From Adlercreutzia sp. ZJ141 (GTDB lineage: Bacteria > Actinomycetota > Coriobacteriia > Coriobacteriales > Eggerthellaceae): a DNA stretch of 33,121 nt. Numbering within the stretch: position 1 is the first letter of the stretch; each line of letters opens with the position of its first letter. The translations under genes and the position numbers were made by a program. The stretch is taken from positions 1 through 33,121 of the forward strand of contig NZ_JAAKEB010000023.1 of assembly GCF_011038965.1 (NCBI RefSeq). The letters run 5' to 3'. The notes beneath the pieces were generated by a model. It had not been told where the DNA came from. It saw nothing but the letters and a program-made list of their open reading frames with translations, and did no database searches. This document shows, one piece after another, positions 581 through 14,537 of this stretch.

Positions 581-790
581 CTCGACCCTGCCTTTCTCGA
601 CCAAGCGGAGCGCTCATGCCCGCGCAGGGCAAGTCTAGGGCATAGGCGGGGCGTATGCGAGCGCCTTTCGCCAACCCTCCATATGCGTCGGCCTAGCGCA
701 CCTGCCGGCACAGCGCGCCTCCCATATCCCCTTCCTTTCCTGTACCCCGCGCTTCTAGGCGCATCTCATCGTCCGCACATGCTCGCCTGC

Positions 791-969
791 GAACCGCCGT
801 CGTGGCAAGGGCCGCAAAACTTTTCTCCGGAGCGACGCACAGCACACGACCGTAGAAAACTCGGGCCTTTCGGTTTTGCTTTCCCCCTTGCCGCGCCGCC
901 GAACCCCAGGCGCGCAAGCGGACAGATGAGCCGCGCCCGGAAGGCGCGGGAGGCTTTCAGGAAAGGAGG
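791..969 (+). promoter_or_regulatory. Structured leader element, copy A
   Basis: First of three related leaders in the window. Order: GAACC (791-795), stem arm 801-811, a 73-nt loop holding AAAAC...GTTTT (856-860/873-877), stem arm 885-895, GAACCCC (901-907), a second hairpin 931-937/943-949 with loop CGGAA, and the Shine-Dalgarno AAGGAGG at 963-969. The main stem has 11 pairs including one G-T wobble. Compared with copies B (5624-5841) and C (12468-12645), the pair next to CAAGG is G-C here and C-G there, so pairing is kept while bases change. It precedes the amidoligase operon. It could act as folded RNA in the 5' UTR or as a folded single strand of DNA. Confidence 0.6.
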
Positions 970-974
970 ATGAA

Positions 975-1046
975 GTGATCCGGCTTACCACCCATCGGCA
1001 GGCGACGCGCCGGCCCCGACGCTTCGAGGAGGCGCATCATGCCTAG
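975..1046 (+). CDS. Possible 23-residue arginine-rich leader peptide
   Basis: A GTG at 975 lies five bases after the strong AAGGAGG at 963-969 and opens a 23-codon frame ending in TAG at 1044-1046. The peptide begins VIRLTTHRQATRR and has six arginines. Its end overlaps the amidoligase start (1039) by eight bases, an arrangement that would allow translational coupling. The ATG directly after the Shine-Dalgarno (970) reads only Met-Lys-stop. Copies B and C of the leader place the same Shine-Dalgarno directly in front of their main gene, so this frame may be only a by-product of added sequence. Confidence 0.3.
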   Translation: MIRLTTHRQATRRPRRFEEAHHA

Positions 1047-2301
1047 GCGCAGCGCGAACCGCGCGAACACAGACCCGATGTTTGCCTTCTGCAGGCACTG
1101 CGGGCAGTCCTTCCCGGCAAACGAGCAGGCGGTTCAAGGCGTGTGCCCCGACTGTCTGGAGCTTCTCTACTGCGTCTGCGACGGTTGCGGGAGCCTCCAC
1201 CACATAGACACCTCGCGCATCGTCCACGACACCGACCAGGTCCTCTGCCCCAGCTGCGCGGCGATCGTGGCGACCGAGTGCGAGTGCTGCCACGAGATAT
1301 ACAGCGCCAACACCCGATTCGTCCGCGACAACGCAGGCCGCCTGCGCTGCCCTGGCTGCGCAGAGGAATACCGCGAGTGCCAGGGCTGCGGCAGGCACTT
1401 CCACTACGACGACCTCGTCGAGGACGATTGCGGCGACCTCTACTGCTGGCAATGCACCAACGGCGTCGACTTCCGGGGCGTGCACAGCTACTCCTTCAAG
1501 CCGGAGCCGAAATTCCACAGGCTGCCCGGCGAGGACGACAACTCGCTCGTCTTCGGCATCGAGCTCGAGATGGACGGCAACGACCCTGAAGCCGCCATCA
1601 AGCGCATCACCTCGAAGGTCGGCGAGGACTGGCTCTACTTCAAGCACGACGGGTCGCTCAACGAGGGCGCAGAGCTCGTGACGCACCCCATAAGCCCCGC
1701 GTACATCCTCTCGGACGAGGGTCGGGCGATGTGGAGGTACATCTGCGAGAGCGCGAAGGCCGAGGGCATGCGCAGCCACGACGTCGGCACCTGCGGGCTC
1801 CACGTGCACATAAACCGCGACTTCTTCGGAAGCAGCGGCGCCAAGCGAGACATCGCCGAGTACAAGCTGCTCACGATCATGGACCGCTTCTTCGAGCCCA
1901 TGGTCATCTTCTCGCGCAGAAGGCCCGAGCAGATTGGCCACTGGGCGCAGCGCCTCTCGCTCCCGAAGACGGCAGACAACTGGCTCACGAGCGCGAGGTC
2001 GGCGAGCAGGATCTCCAAGGGAACCAGGTACTACGCCCTGAACACCACGAACCGCTACACCATGGAGTTTCGCATCTTCCGGGGCACGCTCAGGTTCGAA
2101 ACGCTGATGGCGACGTTCCAGCTCCTTGCGGGGCTGTGCGACTTCGCAGCGCAGGCCACCCCGGGTCGCCTTCAGACGATCAACTGGTACGAGCTTATCG
2201 ACGAGGCGATAGCCCACTGCCCCGGGAGCACCGAGGAGCTTGAAGCGTACCTGCTGGAGAAGGAACTGATGACGGAAAGGAAGGAAACGAAATGTGCGTA
2301 A
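1039..2301 (+). CDS. Putative amidoligase (Amidoligase_2 family) with N-terminal zinc-knuckle array
   Basis: Predicted ATP-dependent carbon-nitrogen ligase of the glutamine-synthetase/GCS-like fold that forms an amide or isopeptide bond; the substrate is unknown. Residues about 18-140 hold at least four CxxC-type pairs (CRHC, CPDC, CDGC, CPSC, CECC, CPGC, CQGC, CWQC), probably binding several zinc ions. The catalytic domain runs from about residue 170: FGIELEMDG, KHDGSLNEGAELVTHPIS, CGLHVHIN and TMEFRIFRGTL are the acidic, histidine and arginine motifs expected of this family. The start has GAGGAGG six bases upstream. The next gene overlaps by ten bases and encodes a class II glutamine amidotransferase, the classic partner of these ligases in predicted peptide-modifying operons of phages and mobile elements. 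The exact reaction is inference. Confidence 0.85.
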   Translation: MPRRSANRANTDPMFAFCRHCGQSFPANEQAVQGVCPDCLELLYCVCDGCGSLHHIDTSRIVHDTDQVLCPSCAAIVATECECCHEIYSANTRFVRDNAGRLRCPGCAEEYRECQGCGRHFHYDDLVEDDCGDLYCWQCTNGVDFRGVHSYSFKPEPKFHRLPGEDDNSLVFGIELEMDGNDPEAAIKRITSKVGEDWLYFKHDGSLNEGAELVTHPISPAYILSDEGRAMWRYICESAKAEGMRSHDVGTCGLHVHINRDFFGSSGAKRDIAEYKLLTIMDRFFEPMVIFSRRRPEQIGHWAQRLSLPKTADNWLTSARSASRISKGTRYYALNTTNRYTMEFRIFRGTLRFETLMATFQLLAGLCDFAAQATPGRLQTINWYELIDEAIAHCPGSTEELEAYLLEKELMTERKETKCA

Positions 2302-3080
2302 TCGTATTCAAGCCGGAAGACCACGAGATGCCGACCCGCGAGACCCTTCTCGCCTGCTGGGAGCACAACCCGGACGGCGCGGGGATCATGTACCCCGCAG
2401 CCGGCGGCGTGCGCACCTGGAAGGGCTTCATGGAATGGGCCGACTTCGAGAGGGCGCTCGACGAGCTTGAGCGCACGGTGGACCTTGAGGCCGTTCCCGT
2501 CGCGCTGCACTTCCGCATCGCCACCCACGGCGGCGTCAAGCCCGGGTGCTGCCATCCGTTCGCGGTGTGCAAGGACTACAAGCTGATGCGCAAGACCGAC
2601 AGAGTCTGCAAGCTCGGGTTCATGCACAACGGCACGCTCTCGGGCCTCGACACGAGAAAGGGCGTCTCCGACTCGATGGCGTTTGCGGCCAACGTTTTGC
2701 TGCCCCTGACTCACCTCGACGACGACCCCCTCTCCAACAAGTGGATCGAGAAGGTGATCGCGTCTTCCACCCAAGGCTCGCGCTTCCTGCTCATGAACGC
2801 GCAGGGCAGTGTCAGCGTCTTCGGCGACTGGAGCCAAGTGGACGGGATCCTCTACTCCAACCTCAACCACGTGCGATACACCTACTCGGGCTGCTACGGA
2901 CAGCCGAGCCTCTTCGACGCCTTCATGGGGTTCGGAGGCGATCAGACAGACCTGCTCGACTACGGACTCTACGAGGCGTGTGCCAACTGCGAACTACTCG
3001 ACGAGTGCATGACGTTTGCGCCCTACTGCGCGACCTCGGAAGAGGCTGAGTCGATGGCCGAATACGCCCTGCCGCGATGA
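2292..3080 (+). CDS. Class II glutamine amidotransferase-like Ntn hydrolase
   Basis: The protein begins Met-Cys-Val-Ile-Val, so removal of Met would expose Cys2 as the N-terminal nucleophile of a class II (Ntn) glutamine amidotransferase. Other family motifs are present: NPDGAGIMY (about residues 26-34), HFRIATHGG (about 77-85) and the oxyanion-hole-like HNGTLSG (about 117-123), then SDSMAFA. The C-terminus has a cysteine-rich tail (CANCELLDEC) that may bind metal. It probably releases ammonia from glutamine, or cleaves a gamma-glutamyl amide, for the amidoligase whose gene overlaps it by ten bases. A DUF3846 gene follows at once, so the three are very likely co-transcribed. Its role in the mobile element is unknown. 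Confidence 0.8.
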   Translation: MCVIVFKPEDHEMPTRETLLACWEHNPDGAGIMYPAAGGVRTWKGFMEWADFERALDELERTVDLEAVPVALHFRIATHGGVKPGCCHPFAVCKDYKLMRKTDRVCKLGFMHNGTLSGLDTRKGVSDSMAFAANVLLPLTHLDDDPLSNKWIEKVIASSTQGSRFLLMNAQGSVSVFGDWSQVDGILYSNLNHVRYTYSGCYGQPSLFDAFMGFGGDQTDLLDYGLYEACANCELLDECMTFAPYCATSEEAESMAEYALPR

Positions 3081-3091
3081 AAGGAAAGACG

Positions 3092-3544
3092 ATGAAAAGC
3101 GATTTGGAGAAACACGGCGTGAAAGCCGTCGACGCCATGGTCGTCCCTGTCGGCCAGATGCCCCGGAAGGCTCGGCTCAAAGCCGACAGCAGCGGAAGCT
3201 TTCTGCGCGACATGCAGTCCCGCGTCGGCGGGCCCATCGAGGCCATCCCCGGCATCTTCGACGGCAGACCGGTCGTCTACGTCAACGAGGAGGACAAGCT
3301 TCCCTGGAGCAAGTGTCTTCCGAACAGGGCCGTCTACGCAGATGACATCCAAGAGCCCGTGGATATCGTGTTCGGCGACATGCTCTGCGTGGGGCTCGAC
3401 GTCGAAGCGGGCGAGCTGCGAGACATCTCAGCCGAGGAATGCCAAAAAGTGCGCGAGCGCTTCGGAACCAAGGACTCTATCGAGTCGGCTAATCGCGAGA
3501 TCATGAAGATGGTCGAGAGGAATAGCAGAAAGCGCGCAGGATGA
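3092..3544 (+). CDS. DUF3846 domain-containing protein
   Basis: A small protein with the DUF3846 pattern: a core reading MQSRVGGPIEAIPGI, then VVYVNEEDKLPW, PNRA, and VDIVFGDMLCVGLD. Such proteins are common on phages, plasmids and integrative elements of Gram-positive gut bacteria and have no established function. The ATG at 3092 is preferred because AAAGGA lies six to seven bases upstream. An alternative ATG at 3077 overlaps the stop codon of the amidotransferase gene and could allow coupled translation, but it lacks a Shine-Dalgarno. It is the third and last gene of the amidoligase operon. The C-terminal 45 residues are predicted helical and charged. Confidence 0.75.
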   Translation: MKSDLEKHGVKAVDAMVVPVGQMPRKARLKADSSGSFLRDMQSRVGGPIEAIPGIFDGRPVVYVNEEDKLPWSKCLPNRAVYADDIQEPVDIVFGDMLCVGLDVEAGELRDISAEECQKVRERFGTKDSIESANREIMKMVERNSRKRAG

Positions 3545-3561
3545 CGACCGCGCCTGCAAGC

Positions 3562-3666
3562 GCCCCTCTGCGGGAGCGCATGGCCCGAGGCTTTCGCCGG
3601 CACCAACCACGCTCTTGGCGAACCGGCCGGAACAAGCCTTGCCACCATGCGCTCCCGCAGAGGGGC
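3562..3666. repeat. Large inverted repeat with perfect 22-bp arms
   Basis: The arms 3562-3583 and 3645-3666 are exact reverse complements (22 of 22). The 61-bp interior is also partly self-complementary: AGGCTT/AAGCCT (3588-3593/3634-3639) and TTCGCC/GGCGAA (3593-3598/3617-3622). As RNA or single-stranded DNA this would form a long rod of about 105 nt. It lies between the amidoligase operon and the AbiE operon and contains no convincing gene. Confidence 0.75.
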
Positions 3667-3668
3667 AG

Positions 3669-3687
3669 CTGCGCAATTACTGCGCAG
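3669..3687. repeat. Short perfect hairpin next to the large inverted repeat
   Basis: CTGCGCA (3669-3675) pairs with TGCGCAG (3681-3687) around the loop ATTAC. It follows the large inverted repeat after two bases, so the two probably stack as one structure. There is no U-tract, so this is not an intrinsic terminator. Confidence 0.6.
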
Positions 3688-3752
3688 GATCAGACAGGCT
3701 CATCCCATGCCATACAAGCTTTCAAGGGCGCATATAGACGCAAGTTCACCGG

Positions 3753-3779
3753 AAGGCCGTCTATTTGTGGCGGTCTTTT
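3753..3779 (+). terminator. Probable intrinsic terminator of the amidoligase operon
   Basis: AAGGCCGTC (3753-3761) pairs with GGCGGTCTT (3769-3777), with two wobble pairs and a 7-nt loop, and runs into TTTT (3776-3779). It separates the upstream operon from the AbiE promoter 30-50 bp further on. Confidence 0.6.
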
Positions 3780-3804
3780 GATATTGCATCTCTTTTAACT
3801 ACAA

Positions 3805-3836
3805 AATTTCTAAATTCGTGCAGCATGACGTATAAT
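3805..3836 (+). promoter_or_regulatory. AbiE operon promoter with palindromic operator
   Basis: TATAAT at 3831-3836 is a perfect -10 box. A start point six to seven bases downstream would fall on or next to the ATG at 3844, so the message should be leaderless; no Shine-Dalgarno is present. AATTT-CT-AAATT (3805-3816) is a small palindrome over the expected -35 position. AbiEi antitoxins of known systems repress their own operon by binding inverted repeats, so this is a plausible operator. The -35 itself is poor. Confidence 0.5.
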
Positions 3837-3843
3837 CTGGCCC

Positions 3844-4470
3844 ATGGAAAAGACTCTCGACATATTGATTGAGCGTTTCGGCTACGACGCGCCCATTCTG
3901 GCGTGCGACCTGGAGGAGACCTTCCCCGACGTACCCAGGAGGACCATCTATTCCAGGCTGAACCGCCTGATCGAGTCGGGTGCGATCGAGCGCTACGAAA
4001 CGGGCGTCTATTACATCGCCTCCACGACAATACTCGGCAAGACCCCCCTCAACCCGTTGAAGGTGATCGAGAGGAAGTACCTTCGCGATCCGGAAGGCGG
4101 CGTCTGCGGGTTCTGGAGCGGGGCCACCTTGGACAACAGCGAGGGCATCTCCGAGCAAGTCCCCATGCGCTACGAGGTCGTGACCAACAACGCATCATGT
4201 GCGCAAAGGGAGGTCACCGTCGGCGGATACGTCAAGTGCGTGGTGCACAAGTCGCGCGTCGACGTCGACCGGGACAACGTCGACTCCCTGCGGTTCCTAG
4301 ACGTGCTGACCAGGCGCAAGCCCAAGGAGCTCACCGACGGCCAGCGTGATGCCGTGAAGAGGCTGGCGGAGGGCCTGTCCAAAGACGACCTTCTGGCGCT
4401 CTCCATGGCCTACCCCCAGAAAACCACCCGCCGCCTGGTAGAAAGCGAGATGCTCGGTGTATTTGCATAA
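3844..4470 (+). CDS. AbiEi-type antitoxin with winged HTH
   Basis: Antitoxin and autorepressor of a type IV AbiE toxin-antitoxin or abortive-infection system. The N-terminal 60 residues read as a winged helix-turn-helix: ETFPDVPRRTIYSRLNRL followed by ESGAIERYETGVYYI. The remainder matches the AbiEi-like region, with GFWSGATLDN and VPMRYEVVTNN. It is 208 residues, normal for AbiEi-like proteins of the DUF6088 group. The start is the only sensible ATG and has no ribosome binding site, consistent with a leaderless mRNA from the TATAAT eight bases upstream. The toxin gene overlaps its end by 14 bases, so the two are translated together. In known systems the antitoxin neutralises without a stable complex; that this holds here is inference. 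Confidence 0.85.
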   Translation: MEKTLDILIERFGYDAPILACDLEETFPDVPRRTIYSRLNRLIESGAIERYETGVYYIASTTILGKTPLNPLKVIERKYLRDPEGGVCGFWSGATLDNSEGISEQVPMRYEVVTNNASCAQREVTVGGYVKCVVHKSRVDVDRDNVDSLRFLDVLTRRKPKELTDGQRDAVKRLAEGLSKDDLLALSMAYPQKTTRRLVESEMLGVFA

Positions 4471-5386
4471 CGATCCCGAACTGTTCAACGCTGCGGTTCT
4501 GACGACGGCAAGCGAGCTGAAGCTCGTTCCGGGCTTCGTCACCAAAGACTACTTCATCTACATGGTGCTCAAGGGGATCACGGCGCGATATCCCGACATC
4601 ATCTTCAAAGGCGGAACAAGCCTGTCGAAATGTCATGGCGTAATTGACCGGTTCTCCGAAGACGTTGACTTGGGCGTCGAGGCGGAGCACCTCACGGAGG
4701 GCCAGAGGAAGAGGATCAAGGCCGCAGTTGTCGACGCCATCTCAGATCTCGGGCTTGCCGTCTCCAACCTCGACGAAATCAGGAGCAGACGCGAATACAA
4801 CAAGTACCTGGTCAGGCTCCCCGAGCCTTTGAGCGCTGCGGGCCTGAAAGAGGACTTGGTCGTCGAGACTGCGTTCATGACTCCCGTTTCCCCCAGCGTC
4901 GAAAAGACGTTCAGCTGCTTCATCTACGAGTGCCTCAGGGAAAGGACCGGAGGCGAGGAGCTTCTCGAGCGCTTCGACCTAGCACCGCTGCCGTTGGCGG
5001 TGACGTCGCTCGAGCGCTGCTTCTGCGACAAGGTCTACGCGATATGCGACTACTATATGGGAGAGCGCCCCGCCGAGCGCTGCTCGAGGCACCTCTACGA
5101 TCTGCATAAGATGCTACCCGTGGTTACCCTCGATGAGAAGATGCTCGACCTTTTCGCGAAGGTGCGCTTGCAGCGAAGATCCCTGCCCTACTGCCTTTCG
5201 GCCGAGGACGGGGTGGTATTGAGCGAGGTACTGAACGAGCTTATCAACAACAGGTACTATGCCTCAGACTATCGCGAAGTGACCTCGAAGCTATTGAACG
5301 AGCCCGTTGCCTACGAGGAGGCCATCAAATCGGTGAGCTTGATTGTCGATTTTCTTGACAAGCAAACATTGCCGTCGCAGAAGTGA
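4457..5386 (+). CDS. AbiEii/AbiGii nucleotidyltransferase toxin
   Basis: Toxin of the AbiE pair, a DNA-polymerase-beta-like nucleotidyltransferase. The signature is GGTSLSK (about residues 52-58) followed by RFSEDVDLG, whose Asp69 and Asp71 are the metal-binding acids. A helical C-terminal half carries SLERCFCDKVYAICDYYMG and RHLYDLHKM, as in other AbiEii proteins. Related toxins transfer nucleotides to tRNA or RNA ends and stop growth, which can limit phage spread or stabilise the element. Translation starts at GTG 4457 inside the antitoxin gene, 14 bases before its stop. The length of 309 residues is normal and the catalytic residues look intact, so the toxin should be active. The system probably serves for element maintenance or phage defence. 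Confidence 0.9.
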   Translation: MYLHNDPELFNAAVLTTASELKLVPGFVTKDYFIYMVLKGITARYPDIIFKGGTSLSKCHGVIDRFSEDVDLGVEAEHLTEGQRKRIKAAVVDAISDLGLAVSNLDEIRSRREYNKYLVRLPEPLSAAGLKEDLVVETAFMTPVSPSVEKTFSCFIYECLRERTGGEELLERFDLAPLPLAVTSLERCFCDKVYAICDYYMGERPAERCSRHLYDLHKMLPVVTLDEKMLDLFAKVRLQRRSLPYCLSAEDGVVLSEVLNELINNRYYASDYREVTSKLLNEPVAYEEAIKSVSLIVDFLDKQTLPSQK

Positions 5387-5623
5387 AAGAGGATGCCGGA
5401 CTTCGCCTGTTTCGCCGCTCGGCCACGGTCATCGTCACACCCACTTCGGTAATCATGACGTCGAAGGCCACGACAGCGTCTCGGCCCACATGCCCCGCGC
5501 TCGCCCATGCGGCAGCGCCCGCTCGAGGGTGCGGCGGCGCGCACCCGTAGCCCTCCCAGCTCCCGCCCTAAGGCACGCCACCCTTTCCGGCCTCCGCTCC
5601 CTTGTCCCTTAAAAGGTCGCAGG
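5387..5623. other. Gene-free GC-rich stretch after the AbiE operon
   Basis: I see no convincing gene here. A 7-bp stem GGGTGCG/CGCACCC (5527-5533/5540-5546) lies in it and could end the AbiE transcript, although no T-run follows. The next recognised element is leader copy B, which starts at 5624. Confidence 0.4.
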
Positions 5624-5841
5624 GAACCAGGTCGTGCGCAAGGGCGCGCGACACTTTCCCGAACTTTTCCTCCGCCTCTCGCACATCCGGTCCCTCGGAA
5701 AACTTAGGGAAACTGCCGGAGCGCAACCGAATCGGGAGCATGCGCCCCTTCGCCTCCCTCCTTGCGCGCGCCCAGAACCCCTACGGCCCCGTGCCAAGGG
5801 CGGAGCCCGGAAAGGGGCGGCTCCGCAGGAGCAGGCAGGAG
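5624..5841 (+). promoter_or_regulatory. Structured leader element, copy B
   Basis: Second copy of the leader seen at 791-969. GAACC (5624-5628), stem arm 5633-5644, a 114-nt loop containing AACTTTTCC, stem arm 5759-5770, GAACCCC (5775-5781), a strong second hairpin GCGGAGCC/GGCTCCGC (5800-5807/5819-5826), and AGGAGG before the ATG at 5848. The main stem has 12 pairs including two G-T wobbles. The gaps between GAACC and stem (4) and between stem and GAACCCC (4) are equal, as in copy A (5 and 5). The loop is about 40 nt longer than in copies A and C. Confidence 0.55.
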
Positions 5842-5847
5842 GCCAGC

Positions 5848-6285
5848 ATGGGCTACTACGTCGAAACCGCAGACTACATCACCATTCCCCTCGCCAACGT
5901 GGACGCCGCCTGGGAGGCGGCCAAGCAGCTCAACCGACGCGACGACCTGAAGCACGGCGGCCACTATCCCGCGACCCTTGAGCGTCCCCGAGACTCCAGG
6001 TCGGTCTCGATGAACCCGAACAAGTGGTTCTCGTGGCTTCCCTGGGACTACGACGTCCGCTACGGATCGCTCGACGAGCTCCTCGAAGAGCTCGGGTTCG
6101 AGTCAGTGGAAAGGGATGCGGACAGCCTCAGGTTCGGAGTCTACAACTCCAAGACCGGCGCGGAGGAGAGCTTCTTGAGGGCGCTTGCGCCATTCGTCGC
6201 CGACAACCAGGTGATGCGCTGGATGGGCGAGGACGGCTGCACCTGGCAATGCGTGTTCGAGGGCGGTCGGATGACCATCCGCTGA
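5848..6285 (+). CDS. Conserved mobile-element protein of unknown function
   Basis: A 145-residue soluble protein with no signal peptide or membrane segment. It starts MGYYVETADY and contains many aromatic residues (KWFSWLPWDYD, MRWMGEDGCTWQC). The sequence SLDELLEELGFE, then a run of short predicted strands, suggests a small alpha/beta fold. I do not recognise a named family. The ATG at 5848 is preferred because AGGAGG precedes it at the right distance; the frame stays open upstream to 5602, but that part is leader copy B and is not protein-like. It stands alone behind leader B, as the proteins at 12651 and 1039 stand behind copies C and A. This suggests shared control, perhaps early expression after transfer. 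Confidence 0.65.
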   Translation: MGYYVETADYITIPLANVDAAWEAAKQLNRRDDLKHGGHYPATLERPRDSRSVSMNPNKWFSWLPWDYDVRYGSLDELLEELGFESVERDADSLRFGVYNSKTGAEESFLRALAPFVADNQVMRWMGEDGCTWQCVFEGGRMTIR

Positions 6286-6396
6286 CGCCCACTGCTTCGG
6301 GAACAGGCGGTGCGGAATAGAGCACCTGCATAATGCACGAAACGCACCGCTTGACCATGTCCAATCATCGCAATGGCCTCATGAAAGGAGCACGCC

Positions 6397-7278
6397 ATGA
6401 TATCCAACATCGAACAGGCGAAAAGCGGCACCGCAAGCGAGTCGCGAGAGCCGGTCTACTATCCTCTCGACGAGAGCGCCGCTCGCACGGCGCACGAGAT
6501 GAAGAGCTTCCGCGGGTACAGATCGGACGTTCCGGATTACCGCTCGGAAGTGGACAAGGCGTACGAGCTTGCCGGCAAGGTCGCCGCCGAGAAGCCGGAG
6601 CACGCGGAAGAGGCGTACAGGCTGGCAAAGGGGTTCTCTCGCAAGTACGCCAAATGGCTGAACCGGGGATATCGCATCGAGGCGATGTGCCCGAGCATCC
6701 TCGTGGCGGGGCCCGCCGGGGTATCGCCCTCGAGAAAGGAGCGGCAGAGCCGGGCTCTCGACTCGCATATGGCCGAGCGCGCCGACGTCATGTCCATCAT
6801 CGACAGGATAGGGCGCCTCGCCACCACGCCCGACGTCATCAAATGCGGAGACGCCGAGGCCGTTGCGAAGCTCGCCGAGAAGGTCGAGAGGCTGAAGGCG
6901 CGCCAAGAAACGATGAAGCTGGAAAACGCCCGCGCCCGCAAGGAGGGCCGCGAAGCCCCGCACCCGGGCTGGGAGCTCTCCAACAACCGCCAGAACCTGA
7001 GGGCGGCCGAGAAGCGGCTCGAGGCGATCGCCCGGCAGAAGGAGACGGGCAGCTCCGAGCGCACCGCAACCATCCTCGGCGAAGAGGCCCGCGTGATCGA
7101 AAACGCAAGCGAGATGCGCCTGCAGCTCGTCTTCGAGGACAAGCCCTCGGAAGAGGTTCGCAGCCTGCTGAAGAGGAGCGGCTTTCGGTGGTCGCGAAAA
7201 ACCGGAGCGTGGCAGCGCCAGCTCACACACAACGCCCGCTGCGCCTTAGGGATGATGGAGGACGCTGATCACCAGTAG
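6397..7278 (+). CDS. Conserved plasmid/ICE protein with coiled-coil and C-terminal WS-WQR motif
   Basis: A 293-residue cytoplasmic protein. The middle (about residues 150-235) is very rich in Ala, Glu, Lys and Arg and is likely a coiled coil. The C-terminus holds LVFEDKPSEEVRSLLKRSGF followed by RWSRKTGAWQRQLT. That pattern (small strand, helix, GF-x-WS, then WQR) recurs at the C-terminus of many mobile-element proteins, including DUF3560-like and ArdC-linked ones, and may be a small nucleic-acid-binding domain. ATG 6397 has AAAGGAG eight bases upstream. No enzyme motif is visible. It sits directly before the par promoter in the same direction and may serve in replication, antirestriction or transfer; none of these can be chosen from sequence. 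Confidence 0.65.
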   Translation: MISNIEQAKSGTASESREPVYYPLDESAARTAHEMKSFRGYRSDVPDYRSEVDKAYELAGKVAAEKPEHAEEAYRLAKGFSRKYAKWLNRGYRIEAMCPSILVAGPAGVSPSRKERQSRALDSHMAERADVMSIIDRIGRLATTPDVIKCGDAEAVAKLAEKVERLKARQETMKLENARARKEGREAPHPGWELSNNRQNLRAAEKRLEAIARQKETGSSERTATILGEEARVIENASEMRLQLVFEDKPSEEVRSLLKRSGFRWSRKTGAWQRQLTHNARCALGMMEDADHQ

Positions 7279-7288
7279 CTTCTCATTG

Positions 7289-7327
7289 GCAGAAAGTTCA
7301 CTAAATTAGTGAACTTTCTGCTATAAT
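7289..7327 (+). promoter_or_regulatory. parAB promoter with a perfect 33-bp palindromic operator
   Basis: Arms 7289-7304 and 7306-7321 are exact reverse complements (16 of 16) around a single A at 7305. The palindrome ends one base before a perfect TATAAT (7322-7327), so a bound protein would cover the -35 region. ParA, ParB or the XRE regulator could be the ligand. The site is AT-rich in GC-rich surroundings, and it may also be a centromere-like ParB site, although only one copy is seen. Confidence 0.8.
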
Positions 7328-7395
7328 GTGGATACACGGGAAGAGCGGACCTTCCGAACCCAGCACCGCCCTTCCGATGCAAAGGAGAACCGAAT

Positions 7396-8166
7396 ATGAG
7401 AGTGCTCACCGTCAACAACTACAAGGGCGGCGTGGGCAAGACCACGACCGCCGTGAACCTCGCGGCCATCTTCGCTGGGCGGGGGAAGAGGGTTCTGCTC
7501 ATCGACTTGGACCCGCAAGCGTCCGCAACCGACTTCTTCGGGCTCTACGACGCAGGCAGGCGTGAGAGCCGAACCTCCATCGAAGTGCTCTATGAGGGGC
7601 GCCCCATCGCCGACGTCGCATACAGCACCAAGGTGGACAACCTCTTCATGGTCCCCTCTGTCATAGACCTGGCGGACCAAAACGAGCTCGCGCTGTCGGA
7701 GAACGCCTTGAGGTATGCCCTCAAAGACGTTGCCGACAACTACGATGTGGCGATCATGGACTGCGCCACCACCATGAAGCGGCTGTCCCTTTGCAGCTAC
7801 ATCGCAGCCGCCGACAACGCGGGCCTCGCGATCATCCCGGTCAAGATGGACGCGTCTGTCATGCGCGGGGTCGACCTGACCATAAAGGGGATAAAAGCCG
7901 CGTCACGCATGAGCAGGCTTGCACCCCCGACGATACGGCTCCTCCGGACGGTGGTGCCGGGCAGCCAGACCAGGTGCCAGGCATGCGGGGAGGACATCCT
8001 CGACACCTACTTCCCGAACATCCAGTTCGCAACCTCGATACACGCCTCGACCAAGGTGGGCGAGGGGTCGTGGACCTGGGACGCGGTCGTGTCCTTCGCG
8101 CCGAAGAGCCGGCCTGCGAAAGACTACCTCGCGCTGGCAGACGAGGTGGACCATGCGCTCGGCTAA
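7396..8166 (+). CDS. parA: ParA family ATPase
   Basis: Partitioning ATPase. The deviant Walker A motif KGGVGKTT is at residues 10-17, with the signature lysines Lys10 and Lys15. The switch I/A' region is LLIDLDPQASAT (about residues 34-45), and the Walker B-like VAIMDCATT follows near residue 118. There is no N-terminal HTH, so it belongs to the short ParA (type Ib/Soj-like) class and self-regulation would be by ParB or another factor. A CQAC pair near residue 194, just before the C-terminal helix region, is unusual for the family. ATG 7396 has AAAGGAG upstream. parB overlaps its end by 14 bases. Together they should segregate an autonomous or circular form of the element, or control its excision state. 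Confidence 0.93.
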   Translation: MRVLTVNNYKGGVGKTTTAVNLAAIFAGRGKRVLLIDLDPQASATDFFGLYDAGRRESRTSIEVLYEGRPIADVAYSTKVDNLFMVPSVIDLADQNELALSENALRYALKDVADNYDVAIMDCATTMKRLSLCSYIAAADNAGLAIIPVKMDASVMRGVDLTIKGIKAASRMSRLAPPTIRLLRTVVPGSQTRCQACGEDILDTYFPNIQFATSIHASTKVGEGSWTWDAVVSFAPKSRPAKDYLALADEVDHALG

Positions 8167-9055
8167 GGAGCTCGCGAGGTCGTTCACCCTCTCGGGCGTG
8201 ATCGACGAGATGACCGAGACGCGCAACCGCTACCCCGTAGAGCAGATCCCCGCAAAGGAGATCGAAGAGCACCCGGGAAATGCCGTCTACTCCATGGACG
8301 AGCGGGCGATTGTACAGCTCGCGGCATCCATCAAAAGGGACGGACTTACCGACCTGCCCTTGGTGAGGCGCCTAGACGACGGAACCTTTCAGATGCTCTC
8401 CGGGCACAGAAGGCGCGCCGCTTACCTGCTGCTGGCCGAGGAGGACGACGCGTTCTCCCGGATGCCCTGCCGCGTGGTCGAGGGCGTTGACGATGACCAG
8501 GCGCTCGTCATCCTGCACTCCGCCAACTTCTTCACGCGCGAGCTCACGGTCACCGAGCGCGCGCAGGCCACGCGCGCCCTCGACGGAAGGGTCGAGCAGC
8601 TCCGCGAAGAGGATCCCGGGCTTTCGGGCATGCGCACCGAGGACATCAAGGCGAAGATCATATCCGAGCAGACCGGCAGGCAGGTGTCCGGGCGCACCAT
8701 CAGGCGCACCGAGGACACGGCCAAAGCCATCGAGACGCAGCTGTCGCTCGGCTGGCGACGGGCTGCGGAGGGCGGGCTGCTCTCCGACGAGGCCATCGCC
8801 ATGCTCGCAGGGCTTCCCGAGCGGCAGCAGCAGGCCCTTCACGTGAAGTGGTCCCAAAAGAAGCTCGGAAAGAGGGCAACCACCTGCTTCATCAAGCAAG
8901 AGGCGGGGCCTGAGGAGGCGGACCCGAGGCTCAAGGCGGCAGACGCGGCGATCGTCCGGTTCCTCCGCAACAAGCCCGATACGCTGCGCGGCTGCGACCG
9001 CGAAATGCTGGACGCGCTCGGACGCCACATCCAGCAGCTGGAAGAATCGTACTAG
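8153..9055 (+). CDS. parB: ParB/RepB/Spo0J family partition protein
   Basis: Partner of the overlapping ParA. The N-terminal ParB nuclease-like domain spans about residues 25-125: VEQIPAKEIEEHPGN, then LAASIKRDGLTDLPLVRR and the nucleotide-binding box SGHRRRAAYLL. A central helix-turn-helix region follows (TEDIKAKIISEQTGRQVSGR), which should contact the centromere site. The C-terminus is helical and may dimerise. ATG 8153 lies inside parA; the frame is open further upstream, but those residues are a shadow of parA. The length of 300 residues is normal. Its DNA target could be the 33-bp palindrome at 7289-7321, the only large symmetric site close to this operon. Confidence 0.9.
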   Translation: MRSAKELARSFTLSGVIDEMTETRNRYPVEQIPAKEIEEHPGNAVYSMDERAIVQLAASIKRDGLTDLPLVRRLDDGTFQMLSGHRRRAAYLLLAEEDDAFSRMPCRVVEGVDDDQALVILHSANFFTRELTVTERAQATRALDGRVEQLREEDPGLSGMRTEDIKAKIISEQTGRQVSGRTIRRTEDTAKAIETQLSLGWRRAAEGGLLSDEAIAMLAGLPERQQQALHVKWSQKKLGKRATTCFIKQEAGPEEADPRLKAADAAIVRFLRNKPDTLRGCDREMLDALGRHIQQLEESY

Positions 9056-9088
9056 CCAAGGCCCCGGCAAAGCCCGTGCCGCATACGT

Positions 9089-9105
9089 CGAGGGCTCTGC
9101 CCTCG
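9089..9105 (+). terminator. Probable terminator of parAB
   Basis: CGAGGGC (9089-9095) pairs exactly with GCCCTCG (9099-9105) around TCT and is followed by TTTCGTC. It is 34 bp past the parB stop. The U-run is short, so termination may be partial. Confidence 0.5.
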
Positions 9106-9124
9106 TTTCGTCATAGCAAGTATC

Positions 9125-9271
9125 CCGTCGCGTGGACACATCCACGCGACGGTGGCGGCCTAGGGTCGCAGGAAGCGCCCTCAGGCCACCAAACGGCAAA
9201 GCCGCCGCTGGCCGGCGGGCAGTCGCTTCAGCGGGGGAGGCCCCGCACCCCTGGGGAAAGGAGGCGTTCGC
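9125..9271 (+). other. Candidate origin of transfer (oriT)
   Basis: The space between parB and the MobC gene carries a perfect 12-bp inverted repeat (9125-9136 and 9141-9152, loop CACA). About 20 bp later comes GGAAGCGCCCTCA (9170-9182), which resembles, but does not match, the nick-region core known from R1162-type origins. Origins of MOBP systems usually lie just upstream of mobC and the relaxase gene, with an inverted repeat 5' of the nick. Location and repeat fit; the nick site itself is a guess. Confidence 0.5.
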
Positions 9272-9676
9272 ATGAGCGACGAGAAGACGAAGAGGACATC
9301 GGACTTCCACATACGCATGACCGAGGACGAGAAGGCGAGGCTCGACGAGGTTGCCGGCATGCTCAAGATCACGCGCTCCGAGCTCGTCCGCTACCTCGCC
9401 CAGATCCCGGTCGCAGAGCTCGAGCCGGGAGCGCGCCCCGCGATCTACTTGGACAAGAGGGCGCTCGCGCTCATCCATCGCGAGATGCGCAGGTACGGGA
9501 CGAACTTCAACCAGGCCACGCGCGCGCTCAACACCATCGCGTTGCAGACGCGGGGGCACAAGCTGCGAGCACCCGAGATAAGCGAGGCGCTGGACGGCGT
9601 GAGCGCGCGGCTTGACAAGGCAAATGAGAACCAGAGCCGCGTTCTGAGAGCCTCGATGCGCTTGAGGACGCAATGA
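9272..9676 (+). CDS. mobC: MobC-like relaxosome accessory protein
   Basis: A small DNA-binding helper that positions the relaxase at oriT. Residues 10-50 form a ribbon-helix-helix-like segment (RMTEDEKARLDEVAG, then ITRSELVRYLA). The C-terminal part has the conserved MobC/MbeC pattern REMRRYGTNFNQATRALN (about residues 70-87). At 134 residues it is of usual size. ATG 9272 has AAAGGAGG upstream. It lies 14 bp before the relaxase gene and directly after the candidate oriT, the usual order in mobilizable elements. Confidence 0.85.
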   Translation: MSDEKTKRTSDFHIRMTEDEKARLDEVAGMLKITRSELVRYLAQIPVAELEPGARPAIYLDKRALALIHREMRRYGTNFNQATRALNTIALQTRGHKLRAPEISEALDGVSARLDKANENQSRVLRASMRLRTQ

Positions 9677-9690
9677 TCGTGAGGTGAGAC

Positions 9691-10989
9691 ATGGCATTGT
9701 TAAAGCAGATAGCGGGGCACACGAGCTGCGTGCCGGTGCACAGGTACCTGGAGCGCAAGATGCGCGCCATCGCCAAGGAGCTCTACAACTTCGAGGGATG
9801 GGACGAGCGCGACTGCGCCGGGCGCGACCCTGCGGAGAGAGACGCCGTACGCTGGGGCGCGGAGATGGACTTTATCAGGCGCGCCTGCGGAAACGACACG
9901 CCCTGGCACGGAAGCCCCGCCCGCACCTACAAGCATTTCGTCATATCCCCCTCGCCGAGCGACAACGTGAGCCTTGAGGACTTAAAGGCGCTTGCCCGGG
10001 ACTGGGCGCTTGCCCACTACGCCGACCACCAGATCGCCATCGTCTGCCACGACGACAACGAGAACCGCATCCCCCACGCCCACGTCGTAGTCAACAACAC
10101 CAACCTCTCAACAGGACGCCGCATGCACGATGACGACGCGCTAAAGCTCAACCGCGACCTGCAGAGAATGGCACGCGAGCGCGGCCTTTCCGCGTTCGGG
10201 GTGGACAAGGAACCCGATGGCGCGTACGCGAGGCTCGCGCAAAGGCGGGGCGAGACCGAGGTTCGTGGGCGCACGTCGCAGCGGCGCATGAGAAGCCGCG
10301 CCGAGGCGGAGCTTGTCCGCAAGGGGCAGTACTCGTGGGTGGCCGACATCCGCGACAGGGTGGTCATCGCCAGGTCGCTCGCCCACAGCAGCCAGGAGTT
10401 CGCCTCCGTGCTCGCAGCGCTCGGCGTAACGGTGTCGGAGAGCAGCCGAAAGGGCGCGAGCGCCGATTGGGTGTTTTCCCTCGCTAACCACCCGACCCGG
10501 CGCGTCTGCGGTGGCAAGCTCGGAGCGTCGTTTAGTCGCGCGGCCCTCGAGCGCTCGCTTCCCAGGCGCTCGGTCGCCTTCTCGGGAGAGGCGCGCAGCC
10601 GCGAGCTCATGAGCCGCGCGAGCAGCGCCATCGAGCTCAGAGACCTGAGGGGGCTCCATGAGCTGGCAGATGCAATGGACACGGCCTGCAAGTACCGCCT
10701 CGACTCTACAGACGCCTGCGACAAGGCGATGGCGAGGCTCTGCGCGCGGGCGACGGCAGCTCCGACGCCGCATGAGCGTAAGCGCCTCGACGCCCAGATC
10801 GCGCAGATCGACACGGCGAAGCGCACCCTCGCCCGACTGGGCATTCTGCCCGACGCATCGCCTAGGTCCCGCAAGGCGACAGGCGGCGACATGCGCTCTA
10901 CAGGATGGGCGGCGAGCACCCGCCGAGATGCGCACGCGCAGACGAGTAAGGACCAGCAGCGACACGCGGACGAGAGGGCCGGTCGATGA
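9691..10989 (+). CDS. MOBP-type relaxase/mobilization nuclease
   Basis: Nicks oriT and leads the transferred strand. The N-terminal relaxase domain spans about residues 1-145. The metal-binding triad is visible as His120, His129 and His131 in the stretch CHDDNENRIPHAHVVVNN. Tyr19 and Tyr32 are candidates for the catalytic tyrosine. FVISPSPSD followed by DLKALARDWA is the usual middle strand and helix. The C-terminal 250 residues are basic and helical, with no helicase or primase domain, so the protein is a compact mobilization relaxase. No coupling protein or type IV secretion gene is in the window, so transfer probably uses a helper element or genes outside it. The next gene starts inside its last codons (10986). 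Confidence 0.88.
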   Translation: MALLKQIAGHTSCVPVHRYLERKMRAIAKELYNFEGWDERDCAGRDPAERDAVRWGAEMDFIRRACGNDTPWHGSPARTYKHFVISPSPSDNVSLEDLKALARDWALAHYADHQIAIVCHDDNENRIPHAHVVVNNTNLSTGRRMHDDDALKLNRDLQRMARERGLSAFGVDKEPDGAYARLAQRRGETEVRGRTSQRRMRSRAEAELVRKGQYSWVADIRDRVVIARSLAHSSQEFASVLAALGVTVSESSRKGASADWVFSLANHPTRRVCGGKLGASFSRAALERSLPRRSVAFSGEARSRELMSRASSAIELRDLRGLHELADAMDTACKYRLDSTDACDKAMARLCARATAAPTPHERKRLDAQIAQIDTAKRTLARLGILPDASPRSRKATGGDMRSTGWAASTRRDAHAQTSKDQQRHADERAGR

Positions 10990-11537
10990 AGATAGAAATC
11001 CTCTACGCGAACTCGCGCATTGACGTGTTCGACACCGACAAGCTCTCTCCGAGAGAGCCCTTCGCCAAGACCGCCGCCATCGTGAACTACGAGCTGCGCT
11101 GCGACCTGTTGGGAGAGCGGGGGCTTTGGCTGTGGGTGCACACCTACGACACAGGCACTCCGCAGTGCGCCGATTCCGAGAACCCGCCCGTGGGCACCCG
11201 CAAGCGCGGCTGGAGGTTCCTCCTCGCAGAGGCGGGCGAGCTGGACGACGTCGAGCGCATAACCGCCGATGGGGAGGAGATCTCCTTCCGCATCGGAGGT
11301 GAGCTCGTCGACGCAGTCCGCTTCCGCTCGATGGTGGAGCTTCTGGTAGACGATGCGGGCAGGAAGTCGAAGGCGACGTGCGCATGCGAGCTCTACGACA
11401 TCCTGTCCGAGGCGCAAGGGTTCTCGGCGTCATCCCCGCTGGGAATCGCCCAAACGTTTGGGTTCGGGGTGCGCGCCATGGACGCGGCGCTTGCCCTCGG
11501 GGGAGGCGCGGGCTTAAACGACTTAGAAGACAACTGA
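10986..11537 (+). CDS. Conserved mobile-element protein of unknown function (copy 1 of 2)
   Basis: A 183-residue soluble protein overlapping the relaxase gene by four bases (ATGA), hence translationally coupled to it. It begins MKIEILYANSRIDVFDTDKL and has a well-kept centre, RKRGWRFLLAEAGELDD, then ADGEEISFRIGGELVD. I do not recognise a named domain. A second, truncated copy of the same family lies at 13846-14231, sharing GWRFLLA and DGEEI motifs. Both copies are followed by a gene or fragment for the zinc-finger-like exported protein, so the two genes travel as one module. The tight link with the relaxase suggests a role in transfer, but this is inference. Confidence 0.7.
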   Translation: MKIEILYANSRIDVFDTDKLSPREPFAKTAAIVNYELRCDLLGERGLWLWVHTYDTGTPQCADSENPPVGTRKRGWRFLLAEAGELDDVERITADGEEISFRIGGELVDAVRFRSMVELLVDDAGRKSKATCACELYDILSEAQGFSASSPLGIAQTFGFGVRAMDAALALGGGAGLNDLEDN

Positions 11538-11571
11538 TGGCCGAACCTGAAACGAAAGGACAAAAGCAACC

Positions 11572-12231
11572 ATGCAGAAGCCAACCGGAAGGAAAATCAC
11601 GGTGGCGTTTGCCGCCTGCGCAAGCGCCCTGCTCGTCGCGGCGGCCCTGTACGCCTCAAGCTGCGGGGAAAATGACCTCGCGCACGACGCGGAAGCAGAA
11701 GCCATGAGCCCGACCGCCGCAGCTCGCGAGAACGCCGAAGACAGCCCGCCCGAACTGGCAGAAAGCTCGCCGGAGGACAGCCCTGCGGATGACGTCGGCG
11801 AGGCGTCCAACGCCATACCTCCGGCCGATGGCCAAGATGCGTCGTCAAGGCCTCCTTCTGCGCAGGCCAGCGCCGCGCCGCCCGATGCGCAACCCCGAAA
11901 CAACGCTGGCGGAGACGCAGCCAGCAAGCCAGCCCCGCAGGAGGCGAGCCAGAGGAAATGGGTCGAAGACGAGGCGCAAGTCTGGATCGAGGACAAGGCC
12001 GCCTGGAGTGAGCAGGTGCCCGTCTACGGCACCGAAGAGGTCTCCGTCTGCAACATCTGCGGCGAGGACATAACGGGCAACACGTCGGCGCACGGTAAGG
12101 CGCACATGCTCGCAGGGGAAGGATCAGGACACCACAGCGAGGTCCGCCAGACCGTGGAGGGCTACCGCAGCGTGGAGCATCCCGCAGAAGGCCATTGGGA
12201 GACGCAGGTCATCGGCGGCCATTGGGAGTGA
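11572..12231 (+). CDS. Membrane-anchored or exported protein with a C2H2-like zinc finger
   Basis: Residues 8-30 form a hydrophobic segment after a basic start (signal anchor or signal peptide). ASSC near residue 31 is only a weak lipobox. Residues 32-125 are a low-complexity Ala/Pro/Ser/Glu linker of the kind that spans a cell wall. The C-terminal domain has Cys160-x2-Cys163-x10-His174-x3-His178, close to the classical C2H2 zinc-finger spacing, then a His-rich GSGHH and GHWE repeats at the end. A degenerate second copy of this domain is at 14277-14537. A zinc finger displayed outside the membrane is unusual. It may contact another surface protein or the mating partner, but no function is known to me. 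It follows the relaxase-coupled gene by 34 bp. Confidence 0.7.
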   Translation: MQKPTGRKITVAFAACASALLVAAALYASSCGENDLAHDAEAEAMSPTAAARENAEDSPPELAESSPEDSPADDVGEASNAIPPADGQDASSRPPSAQASAAPPDAQPRNNAGGDAASKPAPQEASQRKWVEDEAQVWIEDKAAWSEQVPVYGTEEVSVCNICGEDITGNTSAHGKAHMLAGEGSGHHSEVRQTVEGYRSVEHPAEGHWETQVIGGHWE

Positions 12232-12467
12232 TCGTCGGAGCGGCCCGCATGTGCACCCGCCATCACCAGCTCCAGCGAACGTGTTGCCGCTGACGCCCGC
12301 CGAAGGCGGCCCGCGATGCCACGCAGTGTTTCAAGCCCAGCAAACCCATGTTCTAAGTCCCTCGATGGTCGAGTGCCGCTCCTTTCCAAGTCGGTGCACC
12401 GCCTGTTTTCCAAGCGACCTCCCGTACGACATGCCCCGCCTCTCCTTCAGCCGCAAAGACTCGCCGG

Positions 12468-12645
12468 GAACCCGCAGAGCCGCAAGGGCCGCGAAAAACT
12501 TTTGCATGATGAACGACACTCCATTCCCTGCAAAACTCACACCCTCCGGGTTTTCGCTTTGCACCCTTGCGCCTCCCGCAGAACCCCGGCGCGCCTGCGC
12601 CCAGAAGGCGAAGCAAGGGGCATCGCCGAGACGATCAGGAGGTCT
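12468..12645 (+). promoter_or_regulatory. Structured leader element, copy C
   Basis: Third copy of the leader of 791-969. GAACC (12468-12472), stem arm 12481-12488, a 75-nt loop with AAAACTTTT near its start and AAAAC...GTTTT (12532-12536/12550-12554), stem arm 12564-12571, GAACCCC (12581-12587), a small hairpin CGCC/GGCG (12598-12601/12607-12610) with loop CAGAA, and AGGAGG (12638-12643) before the ATG at 12651. The 8-pair stem extends by three more pairs beyond one C-C mismatch. The remaining sequence from 12232 to 12467 shows only a small CCGCC/GGCGG hairpin near 12297. Confidence 0.6.
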
Positions 12646-12650
12646 TCACA

Positions 12651-13310
12651 ATGGGAAACAGGGCAGTCATCACAACGCCGAAGAAGGATCTGGCGCTTTA
12701 CCTGCATTGGAACGGCGGACGCGACACGGTGGAGCCGCTGCTTACGTACTGCGAGCTTCAAGGGTATCGACCGCCGAGCTGCGACAGCTACGGATGGGCG
12801 CGGATGGCGCAGGTCATGGGCAACTTCTTCGGAGGTGCCTTAAGCGTGGGCATCGATCGGTTCGACCGGCTCGGCGATCAGGGTGACAACGGCGTCTACG
12901 TCATCGACGGCTGGAAGATCGTCGGCCGCATCGAGGAGGAGCTCGACGACGACTACAACGTCACGGGCTGGCACGAGTTCCCTGAGTCCCGCGAGCAGCA
13001 CGAGCACGACTTCGACGACATGTTGCGAAGCTTCGATGAGGCCATGCCGAAGCGTCTGCGGCTCGGTGCCTTCCTGGACTCCATCGAGATTCCCGTATCC
13101 GAGCTGAAATTAGGCGACACGGTCTGGATGCGCGAAGTCGACGGCACTATAAGAACCTATCCCGTCATCGGGTTCGGAACCGACATGGTGAATGGGGCAG
13201 ACAGGACGGGCTGTGCCTACGTTGCGCGCTACGGTCGCAACGGCGACTACTCCCTGAATCCCAACAACTACCCGCACGGGAAGACGTGTCGGATCGCGCC
13301 TCGCAAGTAG
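12651..13310 (+). CDS. Conserved mobile-element protein beginning MGNRAVITT
   Basis: A 219-residue soluble protein of a family I recall as frequent on integrative elements and plasmids of Firmicutes and Actinobacteria but which has no known function. Typical stretches are LALYLHWNGGRDTVEPLL, then YGWARMAQVMGNFFGG, then DNGVYVIDGWKIVGR. The C-terminal 80 residues add VSELKLGDTVWMREVDG, a likely small beta barrel. ATG 12651 has AGGAGG seven bases upstream. It is the first gene behind leader copy C, and a second small protein gene follows after a hairpin (13388). Proteins of this kind lie near antirestriction genes in other elements, so an early role after entry is plausible but unproven. Confidence 0.7.
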   Translation: MGNRAVITTPKKDLALYLHWNGGRDTVEPLLTYCELQGYRPPSCDSYGWARMAQVMGNFFGGALSVGIDRFDRLGDQGDNGVYVIDGWKIVGRIEEELDDDYNVTGWHEFPESREQHEHDFDDMLRSFDEAMPKRLRLGAFLDSIEIPVSELKLGDTVWMREVDGTIRTYPVIGFGTDMVNGADRTGCAYVARYGRNGDYSLNPNNYPHGKTCRIAPRK

Positions 13311-14231: not shown

Positions 14232-14276
14232 TTTTGTTCGCTGGCTCATCAAGGCAGTGTTTCGGTTCATGTAGGG

Positions 14277-14537
14277 AGTGAGCAGGTTCCAGTTTATGGC
14301 ACCAAGGAGGTCTCGATTTGCGACGTATGCGGCGCGAACGTCACGGGCAACACATTGGCGCATGGCAAGGCGCACATGCTTGCAGGGGTTGGCTCTGGAC
14401 ATCACAGCAAGGTCAAGCAGATCGTCACCGGTTACAGCACCGTAAACCATGCAGCAGAAGGCCATTGGGAAACCAAGGTGGTCGGCGGCATTGGGAATAG
14501 ATTCGGGGAACCCGGCAAATTGTCGATCATTCGGTAA
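14277..14537 (+). pseudogene. Fragment of a second zinc-finger-like exported protein
   Basis: It encodes the C-terminal domain only: SEQVPVYGTKEVSICDVCGA and then GKAHMLAGVGSGHHSKVKQ. This matches the protein at 11572-12231 with the same Cys-x2-Cys-x10-His-x3-His spacing. The signal anchor and linker are absent. Near 14488 one C is missing compared with copy 1, so the original ending GGHWE-stop becomes GGIGNRFGEPG and the frame runs on to 14537. Loss of the start and a 3' frameshift mark it as a pseudogene. With 13846-14231 it forms a decayed duplicate of the 10986-12231 module. Confidence 0.7.

Follow-up and report, generated by a model that had tools for sequence, protein, structure and literature searches.

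The closest described counterparts of the element reported here are the Frpo/ssi signals of plasmids F and ColIb-P9, multicopy folded leaders placed before leading-region genes that run towards the origin of transfer (oriT) and the transfer genes. According to the consulted sections of PMC9849209, the stems of Frpo1 and Frpo2 carry -10 and -35 boxes, and all leading genes of plasmid F that were tested, apart from ygfA, have the transferred strand as their template. A second counterpart is EGeRS1 of the pLS20 family, presented in the consulted part of PMC8708921 as a multicopy structured segment that ends at the ribosome-binding site, precedes variable establishment operons, lacks a constitutive promoter and blocks read-through expression; the mechanism activating establishment genes is called unknown there for most plasmids of the family. 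How Gram-positive conjugative elements turn on their establishment genes within the first minutes is the wider question behind this analysis of a 33,121-nt contig of Adlercreutzia sp. ZJ141 (NZ_JAAKEB010000023.1, contig C14 in its entirety, from an assembly of 2.29 Mb; hereafter the window). It carries three copies, A, B and C, of a structured leader standing before different genes and belonging to a large family that Rfam does not contain. The hypothesis that we favour, with a probability of roughly 45%, is that this leader combines a Frpo-like start signal on single-stranded DNA (ssDNA) with a translation lock on read-through mRNA.

The three copies had been proposed in a sequence-only reading of the window, and their description holds. 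All lie on the + strand, with GAACC at 791, 5624 and 12468, and share the CAAGG and CCTTG arms, the GAACCCC motif and a small hairpin followed by a Shine-Dalgarno (SD) sequence (Table 1). The exchanged base pair reported next to CAAGG is the second one outside this motif, G-C in A and C-G in B and C, the first being G-C in all three. The resemblance is beyond chance: covariance model R1, built on alignment A3 from 30 of 32 selected copies, none of them from the window, recovers A at 70.3 bits (E 1.1e-15), C at 70.6 bits (E 9.1e-16) and B at 29.0 bits (E 2.1e-5) when default filters are applied. Switching the filters off leaves the scores of A and C unchanged, but the 15 matches then listed (E up to 1) do not include B. 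Copy B is thus a diverged member, with a longer apical part, whose detection varies with the search mode. Three parts come in addition to the earlier description: the stem reaches far outside GAACC, its apex is a three-way junction of helices P3, P4 and P5, and a segment complementary to the SD (anti-SD) lies upstream.

Many genomes of this taxonomic family contain the pattern CAAGGGCCGCNAAAACTT free of mismatches, and a single contig often has several occurrences. The core pattern occupied 51 distinct places in the loci then scanned, and 42 copies were aligned (A2; 42 of the 46 having a found 3' arm). The outermost part of the leader is the anti-SD, often GACCTCC, about 50 to 80 nt ahead of an invariant CAAGGG. 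A long imperfect rod follows, interrupted in many copies by a GAACC/GAACC internal loop. P2 (GCAAGGG/CCCTTGC) is nearly invariant, P3 is GCGAAA/TTTCGC and P5 is a CCC/GGG hairpin. The arms of P4 vary freely but keep pairing, as in TTTTCT/AGAAAA, TTTTGCA/TGCAAAA and CTCCGCC/GGCGGAG. Hairpin P6 lies 3' of the rod and precedes an SD such as AGGAGGTC. In many copies the outer rod arm and P6 have bases in common, so that the two are mutually exclusive. Spacing to the gene is fixed: the start codon lies at a median of 73 nt past the core (quartiles 70 and 76), with an SD in 99 of 101 copies. These 101 remained from 106 once near-identical copies had been removed; another set holds 49 and leaves out a partial copy at L001 from 1499 (G000:C7:17588), where a leader begins without a recognisable 3' half and is perhaps broken. 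A role of GAACC as a box for an extracytoplasmic function sigma factor was rejected because many copies lack it.

Covariation of the fold is strong. The structure was drawn by hand and scored on two alignments. In A3, a plain MAFFT alignment of 30 rows, 92.5% of the cells are paired (84.6% when shuffled) and both sides change in 12 of 25 pairs. In A5, which is fitted to the model (97 matches, 83 distinct) and leans towards that structure, 92.8% are paired, both sides change in 19 of 27 pairs and covariation scores 0.280, compared with 0.100. RNAalifold gave no P4 on the first alignment because MAFFT shifts the copies with an extra A. At Rfam gathering thresholds there is no match to a leader in the window or in four loci with consensus-like copies, and a permissive search of positions 600-13000 yields three microRNA-type matches, none overlapping a leader. 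The expectations of further homologues, of co-varying stems and of no known RNA family are therefore all borne out. In literature searched for ssDNA promoters, establishment genes, leading regions, Coriobacteriia and structured RNAs, none of the titles and abstract openings listed describes the leader; catalogues of candidate RNAs such as PMC8040213, of which a part was available, might list it.

Within the taxonomic family R1 has matches in 62 of 138 genomes and in 30 of 48 genera, and the search proposed for the class Coriobacteriia gave homologues in 84 of 396 genomes, every match listed being labelled as of the same family or the same order (order and class names are those of the record titles). 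In a sample of the phylum, 6 of 346 genomes match at E up to 1e-5, all within the order. An exact 20-mer searched in one genome per species (84,980 species) returned 31 stretches, mostly titled Eggerthellaceae, Coriobacteriaceae or related genera. Matches outside the order come from Bifidobacterium merycicum DSM 6492 (L187), at 6048-6144 and 7650-7749 with 88.7 and 66.3 bits, suggesting that a conjugative element crossed between orders. Copies can be dense: a 19-kb stretch (L068, G134:C17) has 10 R1 matches on one strand over about 10.7 kb, many ahead of small genes of unknown family. The 20-mer is absent from the viral contigs searched, and blastn of copy C, the only copy tried, found no match in phages or in a plasmid collection that includes plasmid F.

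Seventy-five leaders, a subset of those found, were placed relative to relaxase genes, for which 36 genomes were searched and 29 gave a match. A PF03432 relaxase lies within 25 kb on the contig for 60 of the 75, on the same strand in 57 of these 60 and downstream on the same strand in 55. The window has an oriT candidate between parB and the NikA-like gene. The same arrangement, a variable repeat with GCAAG on the side facing the leaders, is seen in 11 of 25 loci scanned (the window and ten sites in 9 genomes); a twelfth match (L076, plus strand) looks like chance. A wholesale pattern search for oriT had given mostly chance matches, with similar counts in controls, and only sites near relaxases were pursued. 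In L006 and L074, about 1.04 kb ahead of the relaxase match, a 13-14 bp inverted repeat is followed by a TGTACAAT-like sequence, perhaps an operator.

Read on the minus strand, the oriT-type sites present the repeat and then 8 nt to a candidate CTTG/C nick, a spacing that we presume to be that of RP4. In oriTs of the MOBP type the nick, with consensus YATCCTGY, is preceded by the repeat (PMC3772185, consulted part). Because of this placement the minus strand, template of the leader genes, would be the transferred one, and the leaders would enter before the relaxase gene. This polarity rests on the invariant left side of the sites and on the way in which leading region, oriT and relaxase usually follow one another; in plasmid F, too, the leading genes point towards the transfer genes.

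The strand that folds was addressed by mismatch types and by folding energy. The mismatch score treats both strands alike and counts transitions flanked by Watson-Crick pairs, an A.C on the plus strand being a G.T on the minus strand. The outer rod has 151 A.C and 43 G.T, distributed along it, compared with 519 and 313 for permuted partners and 509 and 275 for shuffled 3' arms; with two flanking pairs required on each side the numbers are 67 and 17, versus 175 and 112. A.C is in excess in 46 of 63 loci and G.T in 5. P4 goes in the same direction (A.C 21 and G.T 8 in one count, 18 and 9 in the other), and the alignment of the whole model has 54 A.C and 29 G.T. Folding energies calculated with DNA parameters favour the minus strand in 98 of 101 copies, with a mean difference of -7.4 kcal/mol (-4.1 for shuffled leaders, -0.9 for random windows), and RNA parameters favour it in 101 of 101 (-16.4 versus -12.3). 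In thiamine pyrophosphate (TPP) riboswitches the plus strand is favoured in 26 of 30, a control that shows the sign only because its mean of +4.6 is close to that of its shuffles (+4.5). Self-comparison of plasmid F places its Frpo pair at 58081-58621 and 63469-64011, and the two stretches holding the pair give -7.5 (shuffled -2.8, standard deviation 2.6) and -7.0 (shuffled -4.8, standard deviation 4.1). A stretch before the antirestriction gene, not counted as Frpo, gives -6.6 (shuffled -3.0) and a fourth stretch +13.1 (shuffled +12.4).

The upstream anti-SD co-varies with the SD of each copy. Complementarity of 6 nt or more to the copy's own SD is present between 70 and 44 nt ahead of the core in 53 of the 90 copies covered out of 101, compared with a mean of 8.0 and a maximum of 17 in shuffles; distant windows give 4 to 11 and neighbouring windows up to 48. 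When SDs are re-dealt among copies, 0 of 500 trials reach the observed mean. An earlier and wider test, which left 4 copies unscored including copy A, is weaker, 3 of 500 re-dealings reaching the observed value. This co-varying pair points to a component acting at the mRNA level too. The inverted repeats at the ends of IS10 and IS200 likewise sequester an SD, and here a read-through mRNA would similarly gain an upstream arm hiding the SD; the leader differs in being no transposon end and in serving many unrelated genes.

The sequence-only reading had offered two roles, a regulatory RNA in the 5' untranslated region (UTR) or an ssDNA promoter like Frpo. Mismatch types, folding energy and the oriT layout make us lean to the second, the SD:anti-SD pair indicates a part of the first as well, and the boxes of Frpo were not found. 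In the combined hypothesis a single expression signal, repeated in the leaders, would serve the early genes in the leading region of conjugative elements. The template strand of these genes would be the one that is transferred, and wherever the incoming ssDNA carries a leader it would fold into a long rod capped by the invariant three-way junction. The downstream gene could then be transcribed from in or near the fold, ahead of second-strand synthesis. In the resident double-stranded DNA (dsDNA), read-through mRNA would carry the anti-SD, the SD would be locked in the helix closing the leader and the gene would probably be silent. The likeness to Frpo/ssi extends to the better folding of the template strand, in part a matter of composition; the differences are the sequence, the hosts, the three-way junction, the SD:anti-SD lock and the lack of rebuilt -35/-10 boxes.

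Several results weigh against this hypothesis. Its main gap is the missing -35/-10 boxes: none is rebuilt in the fold, the scores of all copies stay below 10 in the rod, 3' arm and upstream stretch, and sigma-70 boxes, scanned with one consensus, are not above shuffles in the upstream 200 nt, the rod or the 3' arm. Much of the strand bias follows base composition, more than half of the energy difference surviving shuffling. When related copies are grouped in 41 clusters, A.C is in excess in 26 and G.T in 4, with 19.05 and 7.55 on permutation; one 9-copy cluster is unbiased (12 G.T, 11 A.C) and so is P6 (20:20), so that part of the mismatch bias also comes from base composition. The plasmid F differences are themselves only about 0.5 to 1.8 standard deviations from their shuffles. 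Five of the 60 leaders with a relaxase depart from the common placement (copy C, which lies beyond the relaxase, one on G032:C136, two on G032:C133 and one in G015). CTTG is also present on the other flank in 7 of the 11 oriT-type sites, which leaves the nicked strand uncertain and weakens the strand argument. Finally, a plain RNA regulator would also show SD:anti-SD pairing.

It is doubtful, though conceivable, that the leader represents a new class of ssDNA promoter in which the invariant three-way junction replaces the -35/-10 boxes and the SD lock silences the resident dsDNA, the whole forming a two-layer sensor of fresh entry. An unusual polymerase or primase might recognise such a promoter.

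The main rival is a cis-regulatory 5' UTR RNA only, transcribed from dsDNA by an unseen promoter, in which a protein or ligand would determine whether the SD:anti-SD helix, the helix of the outer rod or hairpin P6 forms. This explanation is a tentative one that we take seriously, as the leader is always near an SD and start codon, the SD is sequestered by a co-varying partner and the outer rod arm shares bases with P6. It is opposed by the mismatch counts given above, in which G.U-type mismatches of the coding strand are not enriched either in the outer rod or in the model alignment, by the poorer folding of the plus strand and by the lack of a visible upstream sigma-70 promoter. Two other RNA-level candidates were rejected: promoter scores for an antisense RNA from the minus strand resemble shuffles (mean 7.63 versus 7.48), and the TTTTT of an intrinsic terminator occurs within 75 nt past the core in 0 of 101 copies.

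A read-through insulator comparable to EGeRS1, whose structure and SD lock would block upstream promoters while the genes are activated by another route, is improbable. The likeness, judged by description only, is that both are multicopy and structured, end at a ribosome-binding site, lack a recognisable sigma-A promoter and precede variable sets of genes, presumably establishment genes in the case of the leader, where gene roles are only partly known. The leader is shorter than the 400-600 bp of EGeRS1, and the strand presumed to be transferred is the template, opposite to the non-template strand that the consulted part of PMC8708921 gives for pLS20. An ssDNA site for replication initiation or protein binding, for instance for second-strand priming, would suit the greater stability of the fold on the strand presumed to be transferred, and primer synthesis is reportedly named as a second role of Frpo in the title of a paper by Masai and Arai; the constant distance from the leader to SD and start codon and the 10 matches in the L068 stretch make it very improbable.

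The genes behind the leaders are diverse. The first gene product starts with MGN behind 24 of 101 leaders; others are YraN-like proteins (UPF0102), a ParB-like cluster (12) and an amidoligase cluster (6, including that of the window). Rarer first genes code for ArdC (1), DprA-like proteins (2), a DUF3846 cluster (2) and an HTH_17 cluster (2). The Pfam assignment was made on one member per cluster, and cluster 0 chains together at least two protein families. ArdC, an anti-restriction factor going by its Pfam name, has one copy directly behind a leader, which counts in favour of the hypothesis preferred here. The first gene after leader A could be a short open reading frame (ORF) starting 78 nt past the core, which fits the family median, the amidoligase start being 141 nt past it; the two overlap as if translationally coupled. 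Elsewhere in the window, AbiEii-type and Abi-like proteins are encoded near the relaxase region (4457-5386 and 14858-15850), positions 12005-12232 and 14275-14502 form a 228-nt direct repeat with 76% identity that resembles a partial duplication of a gene end, and 3562-3666 hold a perfect 22-bp inverted repeat whose arms are 61 nt apart.

Table 1. Leaders, their parts and associated genes in the window (positions on the 33,121-nt contig).
Feature	Position	Strand	Remarks
Leader A	753..975	+	Outer rod arms, core 799-897; R1 70.3 bits; outer ends approximate
Leader A, stems		+	P2 804-813 with 885-892; P3; P4 816-826 with 854-862
Leader A, motifs		+	GAACC 791; GAACCCC 901; hairpin P6 about 930-949; SD 962-970
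Possible 23-codon ORF behind leader A	975..1046	+	GTG at 975; translation; overlaps amidoligase start 1039
Amidoligase_2 protein behind leader A	1039..2301	+	Pfam PF12224
Anti-SD of copy B	5589..5595	+	GGCCTCC, complementary to B's SD GGAGGCC
Leader B	5624..5847	+	Core 5632-5771; GAACCCC 5775-5781; R1 29.0 bits, E 2.1e-5
Leader B, 3' part		+	P6 5798-5825; SD 5837-5844; start codon 5848
Unknown-family protein behind leader B	5848..6285	+	No Pfam or NCBIfam match
oriT candidate	9116..9152		GCAAG and perfect 12-bp inverted repeat; between parB and NikA-like gene
NikA-like mobilisation protein	9272..9676	+	Pfam PF21983 above cut-off; MobC PF05713 below cut-off
MobA/VirD2-like relaxase	9691..10989	+	Pfam PF03432
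Anti-SD of copy C	12416..12422	+	GACCTCC, complementary to C's SD GGAGGTC
Leader C	12430..12650	+	Core 12476-12576; R1 70.6 bits; outer 5' end approximate
Leader C, stems		+	P2 12482-12490 with 12564-12570; P4 12497-12506 with 12529-12537
Leader C, 3' part		+	GAACCCC 12581-12587; P6 12605-12627; SD 12637-12644
MGNRAVITT protein behind leader C	12651..13310	+	Relatives in 40 of 138 family genomes; no Pfam or NCBIfam match

The leader family is multicopy, strongly conserved and readily found with a model, and the matched record titles include the cultured genera Adlercreutzia, Gordonibacter and Olsenella. If the leader does mark leading-region genes, it would also allow new anti-defence genes to be sought by their position.

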